Of a DNA stretch of 45,440 nt, positions 35,992-45,440 are shown one piece after another. A program made the position numbers and the translations under genes. Origin of the DNA: Bacteroidia bacterium (lineage in GTDB: Bacteria; Bacteroidota; Bacteroidia; UKL13-3); NCBI GenBank assembly GCA_021740845.1, contig JAIOYZ010000028.1, positions 1 through 45,440 on the forward strand, written 5' to 3'. The notes under the pieces are model-generated. The model worked only from the letters and a program-made list of their open reading frames with translations. It ran no database searches and was not told the origin of the DNA. How positions within the stretch are numbered: position 1 is the first letter of the stretch; every line of letters starts with the position of its first letter.

Positions 35992-37218
35992 TTACTTGGC
36001 AATTTCTTCTGTTTTGGTTCTTACCATCCGAGCCATATAAAAACCATCAAAACCAGATTCACTTGGCAATACCACGCGCTCTTCTTCTAATGTAAATTGA
36101 TTGTTTTTAGAGAGGAAATTTTGAACTTGCAATTGATTCTCTGAAGGCAAAATACTGCATGTGGCATAAACCATTTTCCCACCTGGCTTCACTATTTTAC
36201 AATAGTCTTCCAAAATTGCTTCTTGCTGACCTTTAACCTTATCAATAAACTCAGGACTTAATTTCCATTTGGCATCTGGGTTTCTTTTTAAAACACCCAA
36301 ACCGCTACAAGGCACGTCTAGCAACAATCTATCGGCAGTATCGTATAATTTCTTAATAACTTTATTGCTATCAATTAAGCGAGTTTCCAAATTGCTTACT
36401 CCTGCTCTTCTAGCTCGTTTTTTAGCTTCGTCAATTTTCCATTGCTCGGTATCTAAGCTAATAATTTTGCCTTTGTTTTGAGATATGGAAGCAATATGAA
36501 GTGTTTTACCACCCGCACCAGCACAGGCATCAACAATGCGCATACCCGGTTCAATTTGTAAAAACTCAGCTACCAATTGCGAAGAAGCATCTTGAACTTC
36601 AAACATACCTTCTTTAAATTCTGGGGTAATAAAAAGGTTCTGTCTTTGTTTCAAAATTAAAGCATCCTTACAACCCTTAATTGGTTCAGTCATGATGCCT
36701 TTTTCTGCTAAGCTTTTAGCTAAATCTGTTTTATTGGTCTTTAAACCATTAACCCTTAAAACCACAGGTGCAGTCTCATTTAACGACTCAACTTCTTTGT
36801 TCCACTGCTTTCCAAGCTCTTTATAACACATGTCGTCCATCCAATCTGGGAAGGAATACATTATCTTTCTTTGTGTTTTAAGCTGCTTGTAGTTATGGGC
36901 TATTTTCTTTTCGTCAACGTTTTTAAACTCTTCCCATTTAGGTAAGGAAACGCCTTTTAGAATTTGCCAAGTACCAAATAAAGTAAAGAGATTGGTTTCA
37001 TTTAATTCATGCGTTTCCAATTCGGCAACGGTTCTAATTAAGCGCCAATAGCGCACCATGTCGTAGGTATTTTCTGCAATAAAGGCGCGATCTCTGGCAC
37101 CCCAAAGGTTATTGGATTTTAAAATGCGTTCTAAAACTTTATCGGCATATTTTTCATCTTCAAAAATGGTATAAATAGCCCTGTTTACTGCACGAAGTAA
37201 GTTTAAATGAAATTTCAT
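35992..37218 (-). CDS. RsmB/NOP-family RNA m5C methyltransferase
   Basis: A 408-residue SAM-dependent enzyme of the Nol1/Nop2/Sun group. An N-terminal helical domain (WGARDRAFIAENTYDMVRYW) precedes a ferredoxin-like RNA-binding part and the Rossmann core: VQDASSQLVAEFLQI, VDACAGAGGKTLHIA (SAM-binding), LLDVPCSGLGVLKRNPD and YATCSILPSENQLQ. The cysteines of PCSG and ATCS are the base-release and nucleophilic residues of m5C enzymes. The likely target is 16S rRNA (RsmB type). It is followed on the same strand, upstream, by a second family member 59 bp away. Confidence 0.88.
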   Translation of the reverse strand: MKFHLNLLRAVNRAIYTIFEDEKYADKVLERILKSNNLWGARDRAFIAENTYDMVRYWRLIRTVAELETHELNETNLFTLFGTWQILKGVSLPKWEEFKNVDEKKIAHNYKQLKTQRKIMYSFPDWMDDMCYKELGKQWNKEVESLNETAPVVLRVNGLKTNKTDLAKSLAEKGIMTEPIKGCKDALILKQRQNLFITPEFKEGMFEVQDASSQLVAEFLQIEPGMRIVDACAGAGGKTLHIASISQNKGKIISLDTEQWKIDEAKKRARRAGVSNLETRLIDSNKVIKKLYDTADRLLLDVPCSGLGVLKRNPDAKWKLSPEFIDKVKGQQEAILEDYCKIVKPGGKMVYATCSILPSENQLQVQNFLSKNNQFTLEEERVVLPSESGFDGFYMARMVRTKTEEIAK

Positions 37219-37277
37219 AATTGATAACGACCCATTTAGGTTCGGCCTGCGAAGGTAATAAAATTAGGCGAGCTAGC

Positions 37278-38636
37278 TTAAATATCTTTTAGAATGCGGT
37301 ACTCGGTGGGGTAATAATTATTCACTCGGTTCTGCAAAACTTTCATCCAACCCATAGGCAATCCCTTGTAGCAAGCCAAACACCAGCCTTGAGCCGTTTG
37401 AGAATTCAAAACTAAATTCCCCTTTTTCAAATAGGTTTGAGCTTCTTCTAAATTGAGTTCAATCCTTGCAACTGAATCAGAAACATAAATGCTTAATGCC
37501 AAGGAATGAGTAGGAATTAATTTTCCTGTTTTATCTAATTTCCCCAAACAAACCCCAGCATGTTTTACATACATGCAGCTGCGAATGCGCTCATAATGCG
37601 GAATATGTTTTAGTGGAAAGGCATGCACAAATTCATTTTCTATAAAAAAATCAAATAGCTCCGCTTGGTTCAGCCAGGGTTTTATTTCTGGTAAATGCTT
37701 TTTAGGCACAAAGTCTAAATTAATTTTCTTAGGATTATACTTGGTATTTTCTTGTTCGAAAGGCTTTTGTAGAACCGCCATAAAAAGCCCTTCACCCTTT
37801 GTTAAATGTGGCAAAAATCGAAACATAAACCCATCAATCTTCTTTATGGGCCAGGTTTCATCCAATAGTATTGGGTAAGGTTTAAGGTCGGTTTGAACCA
37901 AAAGATTATTTACCTGATTTTCGTTTTCTTCCTTGTTGAAAGTACAAGTTGAATAGATTAGAAACCCACCTGACTTTAAACTAGGCAAGATATCTTCTAA
38001 GATACGCTCTTGTCTGGCAACACATATTCCAACATTTTCCTCACTCCATTCTTGCATGGCATTTGCATCTCTGCGCCAAAGACCTTCTCCACTGCAGGGA
38101 GCATCCACCACAATTAAATCAAAGAAGTTCTCTAATTTTTGAAAATGCTTGGGATCATTTTGGGTAATAACAACATTTGGTTTCCCCCATTTAATAATAT
38201 TCTCTTGAAGGTTTAATACACGAGACTTGATAATTTCATTAGAAACTAACAAGGAATTGCTTGGTAAATTATCTAATAATAATGTGCTTTTTCCGCCCGG
38301 AGAAGCACATAAATCAAGAGCTACAGGAGAATCCGTATTAAACTTAAGTTGCTTAATTACCTCACTTAAAAATTGGCTAGAGCTTTCTTGAACATAATAA
38401 GCACCGGCAAAAAACAATGGATCTTCTACAAAAGAAGGACGTTCTTTAAGGTATCGTCCCTCCTGGCACCAAGCTATTTTTTCTTCCTCCGAAAATGCAT
38501 CTGAGGCTTTGTCTTTATTAAGACGAATTGAAGTAACAGGAGAAAGCTTAAGTGCATCAAAAAAATATCCTGCCTCTTCCGGAAAAAGCGACAGGATATT
38601 TTGTTTAAAGGCTTCTGGCAATAGGTTCATTGCCAT
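37278..38636 (-). CDS. RsmF/YebU-like RNA m5C methyltransferase
   Basis: About 452 residues from ATG 38636 (a second ATG at 38630 is possible; the frame's outermost codon is a TTG). It has the Nol1/Nop2/Sun core YYVQESSSQFLSEV, LDLCASPGGKSTLLLDNL (SAM site), VVDAPCSGEGLWRRD and YSTCTFNKEENENQV with both catalytic cysteines. The C-terminal extension (ERIRSCMYVKHAGVCLGKL through VNNYYPTEYRILKDI) is the PUA-like/RNA-binding tail of the RsmF type. The probable target is an rRNA cytosine. It starts 5 bp after the coiled-coil gene, so it is co-transcribed with it. It contains one motif copy (37890). Confidence 0.88.
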   Translation of the reverse strand: MAMNLLPEAFKQNILSLFPEEAGYFFDALKLSPVTSIRLNKDKASDAFSEEEKIAWCQEGRYLKERPSFVEDPLFFAGAYYVQESSSQFLSEVIKQLKFNTDSPVALDLCASPGGKSTLLLDNLPSNSLLVSNEIIKSRVLNLQENIIKWGKPNVVITQNDPKHFQKLENFFDLIVVDAPCSGEGLWRRDANAMQEWSEENVGICVARQERILEDILPSLKSGGFLIYSTCTFNKEENENQVNNLLVQTDLKPYPILLDETWPIKKIDGFMFRFLPHLTKGEGLFMAVLQKPFEQENTKYNPKKINLDFVPKKHLPEIKPWLNQAELFDFFIENEFVHAFPLKHIPHYERIRSCMYVKHAGVCLGKLDKTGKLIPTHSLALSIYVSDSVARIELNLEEAQTYLKKGNLVLNSQTAQGWCLACYKGLPMGWMKVLQNRVNNYYPTEYRILKDI

Positions 38637-38641
38637 CAAAA

Positions 38642-39025
38642 TTAATAGGTCTTAGCCAGAAATTTTTCAAAATCTTCTTTAAGTTCATTGTAGATCTTAA
38701 TGAAGATATCGTATTCTTCTTTCATAGCAGTTGGATTAGCCACATAACGATGATCGCTAGCAACTGGATTTTCCATCACATTCCTAGTAATTTCATTGTC
38801 AACTTGCTTCATGTCGTGCTTTAAGGTATCAATTACCTCATTCTGCCTAATAAACTGATTTTGGAAATGCTCTACATTGGCTAAAATGTCGTGGTTGTTA
38901 TTTGCTTTAACAACTTCTTCGAGTCTGTTTTGAAAGGTTTTCACCTCATCTTTATAAAAAGTTAAGTCTTTCACCCAAGTAATTAAATCGGTGTGAACAT
39001 CGTTTAAGTGTGCTCTGTTTTCCAT
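38642..39025 (-). CDS. small coiled-coil protein, unknown function
   Basis: A 127-residue cytosolic protein that is almost wholly helical and highly charged, with heptad-like stretches (FYKDEVKTFQNRLEEVV, IDTLKHDMKQVDNEI, IFIKIYNELKEDFEKFL). No catalytic motif or signal peptide is visible. It precedes the RsmF-like gene by 5 bp in the same direction, so a shared transcript is likely. A -7-like box (TATATTTG, minus strand) lies 26 bp upstream of its ATG. Confidence 0.75.
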   Translation of the reverse strand: MENRAHLNDVHTDLITWVKDLTFYKDEVKTFQNRLEEVVKANNNHDILANVEHFQNQFIRQNEVIDTLKHDMKQVDNEITRNVMENPVASDHRYVANPTAMKEEYDIFIKIYNELKEDFEKFLAKTY

Positions 39026-39050
39026 GGTAATAAAATTTAGTTTGCTTACT

Positions 39051-39058
39051 CAAATATA
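39051..39058 (-). promoter_or_regulatory. candidate -7 box (TATATTTG) for the 39025 operon
   Basis: On the minus strand TATATTTG matches the -7 consensus 26 bp before the start codon. The -33 TTG is not found at the exact 19-base spacing. Confidence 0.4.
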
Positions 39059-39206
39059 GGTTTAGCAGCAACGCAGAAACATGACAATTGTCAATGAAAT
39101 CGGCATAAAATAGAACAAATTGAAAACCAGCACAAATTTGATTTCCACCTGATTAATATCACCTTGAAACCAAACATTGGTCACAAAATAATGAGTAGAG
39201 GAAGAT

Positions 39207-39787
39207 TCTAGAGTCTAGAATCCAGAATACAGAATCCAGATAAAAAATTTCATGGCTTTAGCCATATCGAAAAATTCTCTGGGCATAGGATAATTCAAAA
39301 AAACATCCCATTAGAAAAATTCATTCAATTGCCCATGGCTTCAGCCTTGGGATTGGAGGGGAAAAGAATCCAGAATCCAGAGAAATATTTCAAATGGCTT
39401 TAGCCATATAAAAAAATCCTCCGGGCAATGGATAATTCAAAAAAACATCCCATTAGAAAAATTCATTCAATTGCCCATGGCTTCAGCCTTGGGATTGGAG
39501 GGAAAAAGAATCCAGAATCCAGAGAAATATTTCAAATGGCTTTAGCCATATAGAAAAACTCTCCGGGCAAAGGATAAAATAAAATAAAAACATCCCATTA
39601 GAAAAATTCATTCAATTGCCCATGGCTTCAGCCTTGGGATTGGAGGGGAAAAGAATCTAGAATCCAGAGTAATATTTCAAATGGCTTTAGCCATTTATGA
39701 AATGCTTTGGGTATTCGATTATTTTAAAAGAAATATCACAATTGAAAAATAATTCAATTGCCCATGGCTTCAGCCTTGGGATTGGGA
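39207..39787 (+). repeat. 142-145-bp tandem repeat with paired REP-like palindromes
   Basis: Four copies. ATGGCTTTAGCCAT recurs at 39252, 39394, 39536 and 39681. CCCATGGCTTCAGCCTTGGG recurs at 39332, 39474, 39619 and 39761. Both share a GGCTTYAGCC hairpin core, so each unit carries two REP-like palindromes about 70-80 bp apart. A GAATCCAGAATCCAG run stands at the unit start. The arrangement resembles REP/REPIN elements moved by RAYT-type transposases, but no transposase gene is in the window. The rest of the 1071-bp gap (39026-39206, 39788-40096) has no clear gene except the leader frame noted separately. Confidence 0.88.
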
Positions 39788-39810
39788 ATTGTATTTAATT
39801 AAAATGTTTC

Positions 39811-39820
39811 GGTTTGAACC
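39811..39820 (-). repeat. GGTTCAAACC iterated motif (intergenic)
   Basis: Exact copy (GGTTTGAACC on plus) between the REP-like array and the promoter of the 40097 operon. Confidence 0.85.
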
Positions 39821-39871
39821 TAAAAAAATTTCAATAGATAGAACCTAAAAAATAATTACCAAAATTGAGAT

Positions 39872-39901
39872 TTGTGCTATTAAGCAGTTTTTCTATATTC
39901 G
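39872..39901 (+). promoter_or_regulatory. candidate promoter of the 40097-45298 operon
   Basis: TTG (39872-39874), exactly 19 bases, then TATATTCG (39894-39901), one mismatch from TAnnTTTG. It would give a leader of about 190 bases before the first gene. Confidence 0.45.
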
Positions 39902-39922
39902 CTTTAACGAAGCCTAAACCCT

Positions 39923-40033
39923 ATGAACAACCATTTAATTATTTTTTCTGATTGCTCCCATAAGAAACCAGGAAACCAAGTTTACTTAATTGGAAAATTT
40001 GAAGTTCTGATTTGTAGGAAGGATAATTATTAG
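39923..40033 (+). CDS. possible 36-residue leader peptide
   Basis: An ATG frame about 15 bases after the predicted start site reads MNNHLIIFSDCSHKKPGNQV and continues to YLIGKFEVLICRKDNY, stop TAG. It lies in the leader of the lipid-like operon. No direct evidence of translation; it could be chance. Confidence 0.25.
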   Translation: MNNHLIIFSDCSHKKPGNQVYLIGKFEVLICRKDNY

Positions 40034-40096
40034 TGGGCAAATTAGACAGCACTCTATAACAAATAGAAGATTCGTAAAAAAATGAACAATTAAAAT

Positions 40097-41086
40097 ATGA
40101 GAATCCTTTTAACAGGTGCAACAGGTTTTTTAGGCTATCGAACGTTGGAGAAACTAGTTACACTAGACTATATAACTTCTATTGTGGCCACGGGGAGAAA
40201 CCTATTGCAATACAGAAAAATTGAAAGCAGCAAAGTGAATTACAAATTAGGAAATTTAGAGGACGAACACTTTGTAAATAGCTTGGTAGAAGGAATAGAT
40301 ATTATTATAAATACGGTTTCTTTATCCTCTCCTTGGGGAAAAGCATCAGATTTCTTTCTTGCCAATATTCAAACCCAATCAAATTTAATTCGAGCATCAA
40401 AAATCAATGGGGTCAAGAAAATAATTTATATATCCTCACCCAGTGTTTATTTTGACGGAACCAATAAAATTTTATTGAAAGAATCGGATGCATTACCAAC
40501 TAAGTTTATAAACGAGTACGCAAAAACAAAAAGAGAAGCAGAAATAATGCTTGAGCAGGCTTCTATTCCCTTTGTAATACTTCGCCCAAGAGCATTAATT
40601 GGCCGAGGAGATAGCATCATCATGCCCCGATTAATTAAAGCTTATGACGAAGGGAAATTGAAAATAATAGGTAATGGTGATAATGTAGTTGATTTAACAT
40701 CAGTTGAAAATGTAGTTGAAGCAATTATTCTTTCCTTAAACGCAAAAGAAGTTGCTTTAAATCAAATTTATAATATCACAAATGACGAACCTGTTTCGCT
40801 CTGGAAAAGCATTGAAAGTGTTTTGAATGCTTTAGAAAAACCACTGAGCAAATCGAAAATACCCTATAAAATCGCTTACTATTTTGCACGTTTTTTAGAA
40901 ATCAAGGCAAAACTCAATAATAATAAGGAGCCTACACTTACGGCATACAGTGTTGGAACTCTAGGACTATCTTTTACTTTAGACATAACAAAAGCAAAAG
41001 AATTACTTGGCTATCGTCCTATCACAACCACCCAGCAATCAATTGATGAATTTGTAAAATGGTATATATCCAATGAGAAAGTGTAA
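40097..41086 (+). CDS. NAD(P)-dependent reductase, 3-beta-HSD/OleD-like
   Basis: A 329-residue extended short-chain dehydrogenase. The Rossmann loop is TGATGFLG (G7, G10, G13), the catalytic set includes S113/S114 and Y141-K145 (EYAKTK), and the mid-domain signature LRPRALIGRGDSIIMPRLI matches the 3-beta-hydroxysteroid dehydrogenase/OleD branch. OleD reduces 2-alkyl-3-ketoacids to beta-hydroxy acids. Here the product of the ketosynthase in the same operon is a natural candidate substrate. There is no signal peptide. It is the first gene of a five-gene operon and overlaps the next by 14 bases. Confidence 0.82.
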   Translation: MRILLTGATGFLGYRTLEKLVTLDYITSIVATGRNLLQYRKIESSKVNYKLGNLEDEHFVNSLVEGIDIIINTVSLSSPWGKASDFFLANIQTQSNLIRASKINGVKKIIYISSPSVYFDGTNKILLKESDALPTKFINEYAKTKREAEIMLEQASIPFVILRPRALIGRGDSIIMPRLIKAYDEGKLKIIGNGDNVVDLTSVENVVEAIILSLNAKEVALNQIYNITNDEPVSLWKSIESVLNALEKPLSKSKIPYKIAYYFARFLEIKAKLNNNKEPTLTAYSVGTLGLSFTLDITKAKELLGYRPITTTQQSIDEFVKWYISNEKV

Positions 41087-41921
41087 GTTATTTTTAAATT
41101 ATTCTGGGTATTGTTTGGCAAAAGCACACCATGCCGTAAAAGGGGATGATAACATCAATATAAAGTTTCATGCCCTGTTTGGTTTAATACAACATCCAGA
41201 AATGGGTTGGATACTTTTTGATACCGGATATACAGATAGGTTTTTTAAGGCCACGGATTCTTTTCCCAATAAATTATATGCTTTAATAACAAAAGTAACT
41301 ATTGAAAAAAAAGATGAAGTAAAACAACAATTAAAATCTTATGGCATCTTACCTGAAGAGATTAAACATATTATTATTTCCCATTTTCATGCGGATCATA
41401 TTGGAGGATTAAAAGACTTTGAGAATGCCACATTTTATTGTTCACAAACTGCTTACCAGCAAGTTAAGAAAATAAATAATCTCCTCTCTTTTTCTAAAGG
41501 AATACTCAAGTATTTGATTCCCCACGACATTGAAAAGCGCTTAAAATTTATTGAAACTATTTGCGAACCCGAAATGGATGATATTTTTGGGAAAAGGTAT
41601 AATTTGTTTAACGATGATTCTATCTATGTATATGAATTGCCTGGCCATGCTGCTGGTCAAATTGGAATTTATTTACAAACAAATAAGGCAAAATACTTTT
41701 TAATTGCAGATGCTTGTTGGGATGAAAGAGCCTTTAAAATATTAGCATTTCCCCATCCAATTGTAAGATCCTTTTTCGATTCCTGGAAAGACTACAAAAA
41801 CATTATCCAGAAAATAAAGCGTTTTCATGAAAAAAACACAGATGTAATCATTGTACCTACACACTGCGAAACAACTACAAAGCTTCTCATTCAATCAAAT
41901 TTCAATATAGATGCTCTTTAA
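41073..41921 (+). CDS. metallo-beta-lactamase-fold hydrolase
   Basis: A 282-residue MBL-fold protein. Metal ligands: H104, H106, D108, H109 in HFHADHIGG, H192 in LPGHAAGQIGIYL, D213 in LIADACWDE, and H264 in PTHCETT. The entry GWILFDTGYTDRFF is like lactonases and thioesterases of the family (AHL lactonase, PqsE). No signal peptide, so cytosolic. Translation is probably coupled to both neighbours (14- and 11-base overlaps). In this setting it may hydrolyse an acyl-CoA/ACP thioester or a lactone made by its partners; the substrate cannot be read from sequence. Confidence 0.85.
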   Translation: MRKCKLFLNYSGYCLAKAHHAVKGDDNINIKFHALFGLIQHPEMGWILFDTGYTDRFFKATDSFPNKLYALITKVTIEKKDEVKQQLKSYGILPEEIKHIIISHFHADHIGGLKDFENATFYCSQTAYQQVKKINNLLSFSKGILKYLIPHDIEKRLKFIETICEPEMDDIFGKRYNLFNDDSIYVYELPGHAAGQIGIYLQTNKAKYFLIADACWDERAFKILAFPHPIVRSFFDSWKDYKNIIQKIKRFHEKNTDVIIVPTHCETTTKLLIQSNFNIDAL

Positions 41922-43203
41922 AGTCAAAATAGTATATTTTTTCATTCTGCTAAAATTATCCAAATGGTTTTATAGCACTGATTTTTCACGACTTCAAAAA
42001 AGGCGATGGAATAAACAAGTTAAAAGACTGAGACAATCTTATTTCTATAAATCGAACCAATATAGTAGCAAGAAATTACTGGACTTCCCTATTGTAAACA
42101 AGGCTACATTTATGGAACATTTCGATGAAATAAACACTTGTGGCATAAATTTAAAAGATGCTTTAAATACCGCAATAAATGCTGAATATTCAAGAGATTT
42201 TAGTCCAATAATAAATGGCATTACGGTTGGTTTATCTACAGGTACAAGTGGAAACAAAGGTTGCTTTCTAGTAAGCGAAAATGAACGTGCATTATGGGTT
42301 GCCTGTGTTTTAGATAGGGTAATTGGATTTTCATTTCGTAAAAGAAAAGTAGCATTCTTTTTGAGAGCCAATAGCAATTTATACGAATCTGTTAAATCTC
42401 GTTTATTAGAATTTCATTACTTCGATATTTTGGAAAACCAAGATGAAAACCTAAAAAAACTAAAAGATTTACAACCTGATATTATTGTGGCCCAGCCAAG
42501 TTTACTGTTGCTCATTGCTAGTGGTATAGAGAAAGGCAATATAAATCTTTCGCCAACACAAGTTATTTCCATTGCTGAGGTTCTAACTCCTGAAGACAAA
42601 TCCTATTTAGAAAAAATATTTCGGCAAACCATTCACCAAGTTTATCAATGCACAGAAGGACTATTGGCCACAACTTGCAGATTTGGAACATTGCATTTTA
42701 ATGAAGATTTTCTAATTATAGAGAAGCATTTTGTGAATGAAGAACAGAACAAATTCCATCCAATAATTACTGATTTATTTAGGATCAGCCAGCCAATAAT
42801 TAGATATGAGTTAAATGATATTGTTACCCTAAAAAATAGTTGCGCTTGCGGTAGTAAAATGATGGCTATTGAACAAATAGAAGGCCGTTCTGATGATATA
42901 TTATTATTCTACGACATAGCTAACAATGAAGTTAAACTATTCCCAGACATTTTTAGAAGGACCATTGTTTTAGCGGATGAAATTATAGCAGACTATGCAC
43001 TTATACAAAATGCTCCAGATTCGCTTGGACTCTATATAAAAAGTGAAAATACAAATTCGTTTGCTAACGTTGAACTTGCGATTAAGCAGTTACTTTTAGA
43101 TTATAATATTAAGAATGTAACTATTTTTAAAATAACAAATGACCCACATTTGGTAGGGACAAAAAAGAGAAGGATAAGAAATGATAGAAGGAAAAGCGAT
43201 TAA
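41911..43203 (+). CDS. F390-synthetase/PaaK-like adenylate-forming enzyme
   Basis: A 430-residue member of the acyl-adenylate/CoA-ligase superfamily in the short PaaK/coenzyme-F390-synthetase branch. The nucleotide loop is GLSTGTSGNKG (107-117), the acyl/aromatic-binding motif YQCTEG (245-250), then RYELNDIV and a metal-binding-like CACGS (C311, C313) before IEGRSDDIL. The C-terminal lid (about 345-430) is present. It should activate a carboxylic acid with ATP. It overlaps the MBL gene by 11 and the ketosynthase gene by 23 bases, which suggests an obligate pathway role. The real substrate is unknown; coenzyme F420 chemistry is unlikely in this phylum. Confidence 0.8.
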   Translation: MLFKVKIVYFFILLKLSKWFYSTDFSRLQKRRWNKQVKRLRQSYFYKSNQYSSKKLLDFPIVNKATFMEHFDEINTCGINLKDALNTAINAEYSRDFSPIINGITVGLSTGTSGNKGCFLVSENERALWVACVLDRVIGFSFRKRKVAFFLRANSNLYESVKSRLLEFHYFDILENQDENLKKLKDLQPDIIVAQPSLLLLIASGIEKGNINLSPTQVISIAEVLTPEDKSYLEKIFRQTIHQVYQCTEGLLATTCRFGTLHFNEDFLIIEKHFVNEEQNKFHPIITDLFRISQPIIRYELNDIVTLKNSCACGSKMMAIEQIEGRSDDILLFYDIANNEVKLFPDIFRRTIVLADEIIADYALIQNAPDSLGLYIKSENTNSFANVELAIKQLLLDYNIKNVTIFKITNDPHLVGTKKRRIRNDRRKSD

Positions 43204-44176
43204 AATTATAGGGTCAGGCACCTATTTACCTAATAAGGTTTCGTCTGAAGAGATTGAATTAAAGTTTGATTTGAAAAGAAACTTTTCGGAAAAATATTCG
43301 GGAGTAAAATTTAGGCACCAAGTTACGTTCGAAAGCAATGGATATATGGGTGCAAGAGCTATAGAAAAGGCACTACTAAATGCCAATTTAATCTTAAGTG
43401 ATATAGATTTAATCATTTCAGCTGCTGCTACATTTGATTATCCACTACCAAATCAATCAAGTGTAATTTTATCTGAAATCAAGCAACAAAATTTAAACAG
43501 TATTGCAACATTAGATATAGATACCACATGTTTAAGTTTTGTTACAGCATTCGAAGTAGCATCAAAAATGTTGGATGGAAACCAATATAAACGTATTATA
43601 ATAGTTAGCTCGGAAATAGCCTCAAAAGGACTCAATCCATCTAACCCAGAAAGCTTAACACTATTTGGAGATGGTGCTGCAGCATTTATATTAACCTATG
43701 ATGAGCAAAGTAATTCTAGATTCTACAAAAGTTCATTTAAAACTTTTCCAGAAGGTCTAAATTATACCATCATTAAAGGAGGTGGCAACAAATATCATTT
43801 TAAAGATTATCCCTATAACTCTAAACTTCATTCCTTTGAGATGGAGGGCTTAAAATTATTAAAATTAGCAAAGCAAAAACTACCCACTTTTATAAATGAG
43901 TTTTTAAATGAATTACAAATTGAAATGAATGATATTGATGTAATCGTGCCTCATCAAGCATCAAAAGCAGGACTAACAATTCTTAAAAACTCCTATTCAT
44001 TACGTGAAAATCAACTTGTAGAAAATCTGGAAACGCATGGAAATTGTATTGCAGCATCCATTCCAATTTTACTACACGACTCAATTAATAATGGAAAAAT
44101 TAAAAGAAATAATACTTGTTTATTAGTAGGAACTTCTGCGGGGTTTTCAATTGGCACCCTACTTATTAAATATTAA
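43181..44176 (+). CDS. KAS III-type ketosynthase (FabH/OleA/PqsD-like)
   Basis: A 331-residue thiolase-fold condensing enzyme. The triad is complete: C117 (DTTCLSFVTAF), H258 (VPHQASKAG) and N288 (THGNCIAAS). GDGAAAFIL and the C-terminal GTSAGFSIGTLLIKY are typical of the family. A housekeeping FabH would sit in a fatty-acid gene set; this one sits with an adenylating enzyme, an OleD-like reductase and an MBL hydrolase, so a special condensation (two acyl groups, or an aryl and an acyl group) is more likely. It overlaps the upstream gene by 23 bases and lies 12 bp before the hydroxylase. Confidence 0.88.
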   Translation: MIEGKAIKIIGSGTYLPNKVSSEEIELKFDLKRNFSEKYSGVKFRHQVTFESNGYMGARAIEKALLNANLILSDIDLIISAAATFDYPLPNQSSVILSEIKQQNLNSIATLDIDTTCLSFVTAFEVASKMLDGNQYKRIIIVSSEIASKGLNPSNPESLTLFGDGAAAFILTYDEQSNSRFYKSSFKTFPEGLNYTIIKGGGNKYHFKDYPYNSKLHSFEMEGLKLLKLAKQKLPTFINEFLNELQIEMNDIDVIVPHQASKAGLTILKNSYSLRENQLVENLETHGNCIAASIPILLHDSINNGKIKRNNTCLLVGTSAGFSIGTLLIKY

Positions 44177-44188
44177 AGTATTAATTAA

Positions 44189-45298
44189 ATGGAATTAGTC
44201 ATAGGAAATAGCTTGTTACTCATTTTTGTAATCATCGAAATTTTGATTTTACATTTCTTTAAAAAAGAACCTATCCCATGGAAAGAAATAATAATAAATT
44301 TAAACTCAGGTCATGTTTTACTTTGGGTATTTAGAGGCTTAGAAGTAGCAGCTTATTATTATACTTGGAAGTATCTTAATGTTGGTTTGGTAAGTTCATT
44401 GCCTTTTTGGATTAATTGGCTACTGGCTTTTATTCTTTGGGATTTTTGTTTTTATTGGTTGCATAGGCTCCATCATTTTTTCAAGGTTCTTTGGGGCGTT
44501 CATTCTGTGCACCATGAAGGCGAACATTTTAGCCTTTCACTTGGCATTAGAAATTCGTGGTACTCTTCCCTTACCTCCTTTCCATTTTTCATAATTATGG
44601 CAGTTCTAGGAATTCCCGTTGATATTTTTGTAGCCGTTTCTTCTATTCATTATTTCATTCAATTTTACAATCACAATCATTTGATAAAGAAAAGCGGCTG
44701 GCTAGAATATTTGGTTGTTACTCCTTCACACCATAGAGTGCATCACGGCAAAAATCAACCCTATTTCAACAAAAACTTTTCTGGGACATTTGTTATCTGG
44801 GATAAGATTTTCAATACATTCCAAGAGGAATTGGATGACAAACCAGTAGTTTTTGGTATTGATAATTATACTAATTCAAACAATCCAATAGCTGTAAACA
44901 ACTCGCCATTTATAAAACTATTTGGCAAAAATGGTTTGAACCAAACAAAATCAAAAAATAGACAAACCAATATTTCAAATTTTATGCTGGTTTCGGGAGC
45001 CTTATTACTTTTTATGTTACTGCTTTTTTATATCTATTTTGAAACTCAATTCTCCGATCAAAGAACCTTGGTTTTATTTACTATGATATTTTTAGGCACC
45101 ATAGGAAATGGGCTTATGTCTGATGGCAATAAATATGGCATTATAGTTTGGAGCCTTAGTGCCGTGGCTATTCCAATAATTTTACTCTTCTACTTTTCAC
45201 CCAATATTATTTTATTCAAGGTATTATTACTGATTTCCATTATCCACGGAATACTCTCCTTGGCAATAACTATTAAATCAGAAATTAGTCGGGAATAA
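44189..45298 (+). CDS. sterol desaturase / fatty-acid hydroxylase family membrane protein
   Basis: A 369-residue integral membrane di-iron enzyme. Histidine clusters are in order: HRLHH (92-96), HSVHH (105-109), H162/H164 (NHNH), and HHRVHH (181-186). Transmembrane segments lie before and between them. After about residue 260 come three or four further transmembrane helices, longer than the minimal family. Such enzymes use O2 to hydroxylate or desaturate lipids. It is the last gene of the operon, 12 bp after the ketosynthase; oxygen-dependent tailoring of the operon's lipid product is an attractive role. One motif copy (44933) encodes GLNQT. Confidence 0.87.
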   Translation: MELVIGNSLLLIFVIIEILILHFFKKEPIPWKEIIINLNSGHVLLWVFRGLEVAAYYYTWKYLNVGLVSSLPFWINWLLAFILWDFCFYWLHRLHHFFKVLWGVHSVHHEGEHFSLSLGIRNSWYSSLTSFPFFIIMAVLGIPVDIFVAVSSIHYFIQFYNHNHLIKKSGWLEYLVVTPSHHRVHHGKNQPYFNKNFSGTFVIWDKIFNTFQEELDDKPVVFGIDNYTNSNNPIAVNNSPFIKLFGKNGLNQTKSKNRQTNISNFMLVSGALLLFMLLLFYIYFETQFSDQRTLVLFTMIFLGTIGNGLMSDGNKYGIIVWSLSAVAIPIILLFYFSPNIILFKVLLLISIIHGILSLAITIKSEISRE

Positions 45299-45300
45299 TT

Positions 45301-45440
45301 ACAAAGTCAAAAGACCAAAGACTTACCCCAAAAACCCCAACCCAAATCCTAAAACCATAAACCCAAAACCAATTTCGGTTCAAACCAAAAAAAACTAATT
45401 AACCATCATCAAAACTCCCCAATGACCAAAGTCAAAAGAC
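45301..45440 (+). repeat. A/C-rich AAAGAC-type simple repeat, to window edge
   Basis: After the last stop codon the sequence becomes strongly A/C-rich with recurring AAAGTCAAAAGACCAAAGAC-like units (45302 on, and GACCAAAGTCAAAAGAC at the end). It resembles 15160-15205 and the tails of the 101-bp repeats. It includes one exact GGTTCAAACC (45377-45386). No terminator hairpin is seen for the operon. Confidence 0.7.

Follow-up and report, generated by a model that had tools for sequence, protein, structure and literature searches.

What is made by a compact row of five genes at the end of a contig from a Bacteroidia bacterium (UKL13-3 in the GTDB lineage; assembly GCA_021740845.1, contig JAIOYZ010000028.1), and do these genes belong together at all? 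The window, i.e. the whole stretch of DNA analysed, is the complete contig of 45440 bases, and the row occupies its positions 40097–45298 with five open reading frames (ORFs), all open and all on the + strand. They encode a reductase (A), a metallo-beta-lactamase (MBL)-fold hydrolase (B), an adenylate-forming enzyme (C), a beta-ketoacyl synthase III (KAS III; D) and a membrane hydroxylase (E). An earlier inspection of the letters alone (the sequence-only reading) had described them as a tight operon for an unassigned lipid or signal molecule, and the ORF coordinates confirm its layout: A and B overlap by 14 bases, B and C by 11 and C and D by 23, while a gap of 12 bases separates D from E. In our opinion, the chances are about even that the operon builds a fatty small molecule as a horizontally spread, lipid-like biosynthetic unit in which D would fuse two acyl chains.

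The coherence of the set was studied in the neighbourhoods of C in other bacteria. C, aligned with relatives, was used to scan 84,980 species, each represented by a single genome; this gave 449 matching stretches, 397 of which encode relatives of C, and the co-occurrence counts below refer to the best 80 of these 397. Neighbours were obtained by our own ORF calling and label-propagation clustering, A, B and D being counted when they start no more than 6 kb from C and share its strand. All three were found beside C in 71 of the 80 loci, and in 53 of the 54 loci whose flanks exceed 5.5 kb in both directions. Such counts show linkage, so the set is more than a chance assembly, and the proposal that the genes form a compact and conserved operon for a lipid-like or other small molecule is supported. 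Among the nine loci short of the full set, a contig end lies beside C in five (L046, L050, L051, L055 and L077); L100 has no B, and none of A, B and D is seen in L088, L109 and L095, the last of which is cut as well. D stands behind C in 49 loci (46 from Bacteroidota, 2 from Balneolota and 1 titled Rickettsiales) and ahead of it in 25 (24 from Bacillota and 1 from Melainabacteria), the gene order being A-B-C-D in Bacteroidota and D-x-A-B-C in Bacillota. The lack of joint conservation that would have spoken against the sequence-only reading was not observed, and the A–D core extends beyond Bacteroidota.

A condensation of two chains by D is favoured because the characterised enzymes of its clade, which to our knowledge are MxnB and CorB, carry out this reaction. 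The Cys-His-Asn triad of D is intact, as had been read from the sequence, and the aligned residues are kept in 83 of 83 D rows. The alignments behind the residue counts for A, B, C and D contain 83–90 rows, with a few duplicates, which arise because loci L110–L118 partly repeat genomes of L030–L109. In sequence comparisons D gave 182.6 bits with MxnB, 176 with CorB, 129.6 with a FabH and 51.6 with each of OleA and PqsD. A tree of 47 rows, including 28 cassette D rows (of which plasmids and Escherichia coli contributed six) and five solo KAS IIIs encoded apart from such cassettes, split D, the solo enzymes and MxnB/CorB from FabH with a support of 100/100, MxnB/CorB being nearest to the solo enzymes; an earlier 72-row tree, in which 41 of the 83 D rows were used and four KAS rows omitted, gave the same split from FabH (SH-aLRT 100), and both trees were built without OleA or PqsD sequences. 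The ketosynthase does not, then, group with housekeeping FabH, an outcome that would have spoken against the sequence-only reading. The identification of D as FabH was rejected on this ground, on its score with the FabH model TIGR00747 (185.6 bits, below the cut-off of 292.1) and on the presence of the genome's own FabH on another contig than the operon, adjoining a gene that is presumably PlsX. The AlphaFold model of D (pLDDT 93.4) has MxnB as its nearest structure (Foldseek TM 0.93/0.94, Z 45.3), and the identity of D to MxnB/CorB (PDB 4v2p, 4yuc) is 32–33%.

Two sites of the D alignment extend this comparison. At the equivalent of MxnB V94, D has Ile, Leu or Val in 83 of 83 rows and FabH has Phe in 14 of 15, while at the equivalent of MxnB T322 the residue is Thr or Ser in 82 of 83 D rows, and the 15 FabH rows (12 genome proteins, taken as best matches to the own FabH, and 3 from the PDB) all have Phe, Ile or Met. 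In the accessible parts of the respective papers, Kresovic et al. aligned V94 with the catalytic Glu E105 of PpyS and compared it with the Glu of OleA (PMC4578411), and T322 was placed near the junction of the two tunnels of MxnB, the T322L replacement lowering the activity 7-fold (PMC5724707). The same sites bear on a one-chain logic, in which C would activate an unusual acid, D would add one malonyl unit, A would reduce, B would release and E would hydroxylate the product. It is common for a starter unit to be adenylated and then condensed, the triad of D is the one used in decarboxylative condensation, and the FabH model still gives a sizeable score with D; however, D belongs with MxnB/CorB outside FabH, has aliphatic and Thr/Ser residues where FabH mostly has Phe, and is accompanied by no carrier protein among the ORFs of at least 80 aa at 36000–45440, a size limit below which a shorter one could be missed. 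We regard this logic as unlikely, although deserving serious attention.

The other core enzymes also have intact active sites and, with the exception of C, fall short of the models for named functions. In A, the active-site Tyr and Lys are kept in 85 of 85 aligned rows. B matches PF00753 with 46.6 bits and has the metal ligands H104, H106, D108, H109, H192, D213 and H264, which are kept in 83 or 84 of 84 aligned rows; these ligands notwithstanding, it gave only 71.5 bits with the acyl-homoserine lactone (AHL) lactonase model NF045700, the cut-off of which is 390. C is a member of TIGR02304 (434.7 bits, curated cut-off 251.9), and its adenylation-motif positions are kept in 85–90 of 90 rows, the second P-loop residue being Ser or Thr and the Gly near the C-terminal Lys being variable. 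We know of no tested function behind the name of this family, "F390 synthetase-related protein". In the accessible passages of the literature, F390 synthetase is named as a phenol-degradation candidate in one paper and appears in others as a list entry only.

The sequence-only reading had pointed to partial overlaps with quinolone-signal and olefin synthesis. A quinolone-type synthesis of a signal would use a CoA ligase, a PqsD-like KAS III and a PqsE-like MBL protein, three classes superficially equal to those found here, but the score of D with PqsD is far below that with MxnB (PqsA and PqsE were not compared directly with C and B). The kinship is not supported, and we hold such a synthesis to be highly improbable. 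In an Ole-like route with exchanged enzymes, OleA, OleD, OleC and OleB would have been replaced by D, A, C and B, which would give first a 2-alkyl-3-hydroxy acid and next a beta-lactone; the lactone would be either the product itself or a substrate for hydrolysis by B. The matching reaction types within one operon, the OleD reductases as the best named families of A and the formation of beta-lactones by clusters without oleB, as described in the accessible part of one paper (PMC7064751), speak for this route. However, A gave only 166.8 bits with NF042422 and 180.9 bits with NF042423, far under their cut-offs of 580; C belongs to TIGR02304; no OleB-type alpha/beta hydrolase domain was found among A–E; and the score of D with OleA is low. 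According to the same part of that paper (PMC7064751), the catalytic Glu117 of OleA is followed by Pro. This Glu is absent at the equivalent column of D (0 of 83 rows), where the window D has Leu-Pro, the column having been placed via MxnB V94 in an alignment without an OleA sequence. The missing Glu led us to reject D as an OleA, and the Ole-like route appears improbable. Kinship with the olefin system is not supported beyond the resemblance of A to OleD. A search of 118 genomes with the KAS III model NF006720, which we take for the OleA family, gave no match and was uninformative, since the controls were silent, too.

E matches PF04116 with 92.2 bits (cut-off 31), and its His boxes do not vary among the 10 aligned rows. 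Its only NCBIfam match at E ≤ 0.01 is the ornithine-lipid hydroxylase OlsE, with 67 bits. E-type proteins are encoded in 16 of the 80 loci, in seven of them directly behind D on the same strand (46–54% identity), in three further downstream and in six on the opposite strand; 14 of these 16 cassette-linked proteins gave 265–392 bits, while in 345 phylum genomes, from each of which no more than five candidates were scored, the best match outside the own genome was 176.2 bits. A search of 72,556 plasmid records with E gave two matches at E ≤ 1e-40, both in cassettes with A–D. Other genes recur in the same loci, as counted anywhere in the locus stretches, with the family taken from one example each and for one desaturase group by eye: ATP-grasp in 32 of the 80, sulfotransferase in 20, short-chain dehydrogenase/reductase (SDR) in 19 (two of these far off on the opposite strand), GNAT/FemX-like in 17, Rieske oxygenase in 10, DUF3419 in 8, two fatty acid desaturase groups in 5 and 6, an alpha/beta hydrolase family in 6 and cupin in 6. 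The model of the FemX-like neighbour (pLDDT 91.0) resembles aminoacyl-tRNA-dependent transferases (Sbb17, Z 17.3; FemX, Z 16.9). Neighbours in relatives are often of lipid type, such as desaturases and sulfotransferase, with MMPL, ABC-transporter and acyltransferase genes in L045 and PAP2 and desaturase genes in E. coli. The predicted proteins thus show E as one of several alternative tailoring genes beside a conserved core A-B-C-D.

Several observations weigh against the reading of a dedicated two-chain cassette. C occurs without a nearby D in L088, L109 and two Pseudomonas plasmids, and weaker C-like loci (L027–L029) show no A, B or D in their short flanks. The Pseudomonas megaplasmids (L160 and L164) encode either C by itself or B-C with a split A at a distance, and no D within 7 kb, and C may have a second use. 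A D-like KAS III occurs in 35 of the 345 phylum genomes, all of one family code (f18) and none of them among the six with C; in 28 of the respective loci (L198–L225), B, C and E were absent from the flanks of about 1.5 kb on each side, and the sole match to A was a weak one (L220, 25%). Only 26% of 200 bootstrap trees unite the cassette D rows in a single group, and the five f18 solo rows form the sister group of MxnB/CorB (99/98). On visual inspection, the solo enzymes have the same MxnB-like residues as D, so these features mark a wider clade and not the cassette, and in D they could be an inheritance without the two-chain reaction. The folds of the relatives of D are close, and below MxnB the model of D matches CorB (Z 43.1) and a FabH (Z 42.6) equally well. 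Other proteins of the PF04116 family are frequent, with 76 of the 345 genomes, the own one included, matching E at 1e-30, and the E proteins of L039 and L050 are just 32–35% identical to E over short stretches (112–125 bits). The solitary occurrence of C and of D in some genomes could even suggest unrelated neighbours without a joint function, but the neighbourhood counts across phyla, the gene overlaps and the E. coli row described below speak strongly against this, and we find it scarcely credible.

Taking the conserved core, its intact active sites and the clade of D as a basis, we infer every chemical step of the preferred two-chain pathway as follows. An acyl chain would be loaded on Cys117 of D and condensed with a second acyl thioester, possibly a beta-ketoacyl one, as in MxnB and CorB; A would reduce the resulting beta-keto group; B would hydrolyse a thioester or lactone to an acid; C would adenylate this acid, or a substrate acid, and pass it to CoA or to an internal hydroxyl; and E would hydroxylate a chain at the membrane with O2.

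The distribution of the cassette is patchy. C is above its cut-off in just 3 of 19 genomes of the window's genus and in 6 of the 345 genomes of the phylum set (an order-level search gave the same 64 genomes as the family-level one), and D of the other two genus members (G006 and G017) belongs to a separate lineage with Runella-type cassettes (100/100). The sparse occurrence and the separate lineage point to a probable horizontal acquisition. Cassettes with A–D were found on plasmids or large replicons of Paenibacillus, Pontibacillus, Ketogulonicigenium, Paraburkholderia and Burkholderia. As a side observation, A of locus L060 (638–1618) is 70% identical to the window A, while B–E of this locus are 46–55% identical, which looks as if single genes had been swapped between cassettes.

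A plasmid match of the Paenibacillus C protein proved to be a stretch of E. coli and led to a row of seven genes, D-A-B-C-PAP2-E-desaturase, between narI and rtT/tRNA-Tyr in the strains Nissle 1917 (CIW80_RS24800-24830) and CFT073 (C_RS07890-07920), annotated by family names only. Megablast located this row in 672 of 5426 complete E. coli genomes, of which 671 hold at least 80% of it, and 671 of the 673 row positions are chromosomal; the "plasmid" of KE48, with ordinary chromosomal genes around the row, is perhaps an assembly matter. The window proteins A–E are 34, 32, 41, 31 and 41% identical to their E. coli homologues, respectively, and the E. coli C protein gave 755.5 bits with TIGR02304. 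A comparison of Nissle with strain MS1657 showed no interrupted frame among the seven, 47 synonymous and 32 non-synonymous codon differences and, in each gene, a non-synonymous rate (dN) below the synonymous one (dS); in strain S7, E is truncated close to a Tn3-like element. A more far-reaching proposal, possible but rather doubtful as a whole, is that of a phylum-spanning pathway of head-to-head fusion of two acyl chains followed by reduction, activation and hydroxylation. Its product would be a lipid or signal class nameless in the literature searched, encoded on about one eighth of complete E. coli chromosomes and decorated with amino acids in Bacillota by an ATP-grasp enzyme and a FemX/MprF-fold transferase.

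The features of the locus are collected in Table 1. The contig stops 142 bases 3' of E, so a further gene of the operon is possible; its final 14 bases are a copy of 45302–45315. In L048 a sulfotransferase is encoded behind E; its occurrence in the own genome would have hinted at a gene past the contig end, but a search, which had no positive control, did not find it there. The G+C content is 0.320 in the operon and 0.349 in the first 39 kb of the window, and a consensus promoter scan of 39000–45440 gave 33 matches against 29.8 expected.

Table 1. Features of the operon and of the region upstream of it (window positions)
Feature	Position	Strand	Assignment
Gene A	40097-41086	+	OleD/NSDHL-type NAD(P)-dependent reductase (SDR), 329 aa
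Gene B	41073-41921	+	MBL-fold hydrolase, lactonase/thioesterase-like, full two-metal ligand set, 282 aa
Gene C	41911-43203	+	TIGR02304 adenylate-forming enzyme, "F390 synthetase-related", 430 aa
Gene D	43181-44176	+	KAS III ketosynthase, MxnB/CorB clade, C117-H258-N288, 331 aa
Gene E	44189-45298	+	membrane di-iron-type fatty acid hydroxylase/sterol desaturase family, cassette-linked subfamily, 369 aa
Intergenic region upstream of operon	39026-40096	.	consensus promoter matches at chance level

Upstream of the operon, at 39252–39785, lies a 142-bp tandem repeat of about 3.7 copies, diverged partial copies of which occur on two other contigs (C51 and C63) of the same genome. The sole Rfam match at the gathering score in the window is a tRNA gene (353–426, – strand). 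Two further KAS III genes of the own genome (L121 and L122), one preceded by a KAS-like gene and followed by an SDR gene and the other beside a glycosyltransferase-like gene, possibly belong to other small biosynthetic loci, their neighbours having been named by eye.

A four-gene core common to Bacteroidota, Bacillota and Pseudomonadota, with differing tailoring sets, resembles a widespread lipid or natural-product pathway, which the annotations seen record by family name only. The ketosynthases of the cassette are kin of two antibiotic-synthesis enzymes, and the product can be sought in a tractable strain, because E. coli Nissle 1917 has a single gene row with homologues of all five. No characterised pathway or paper on this operon was found in the open-access literature, which as the only literature covered is weak evidence of absence and does not contradict the earlier description of the pathway as undescribed.

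Summarizing the comparison with known systems, it may be concluded that the operon consists of known enzyme families in a combination that we could not match to any described system found. The nearest solved relatives of D in sequence and fold, MxnB and CorB of the myxopyronin and corallopyronin pathways, share with it the triad, the aliphatic residue at the position of the OleA Glu and the Thr/Ser at that of T322. According to the accessible parts of two papers, they fuse two chains in polyketide-synthase (PKS) antibiotic synthesis (PMC5724707, PMC12304814), while no PKS was seen adjoining D. The Ole pathway likewise combines a ketosynthase, an OleD-type reductase, an adenylating enzyme and a hydrolase in one operon, whereas here the OleA Glu is absent, C is of another family, an MBL protein stands for OleB and a hydroxylase is added. 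E matches the ornithine-lipid hydroxylase OlsE far below the cut-off of 475 for that family. The row between narI and tRNA-Tyr in E. coli has all five families of the window, in a different order and with two extra genes.

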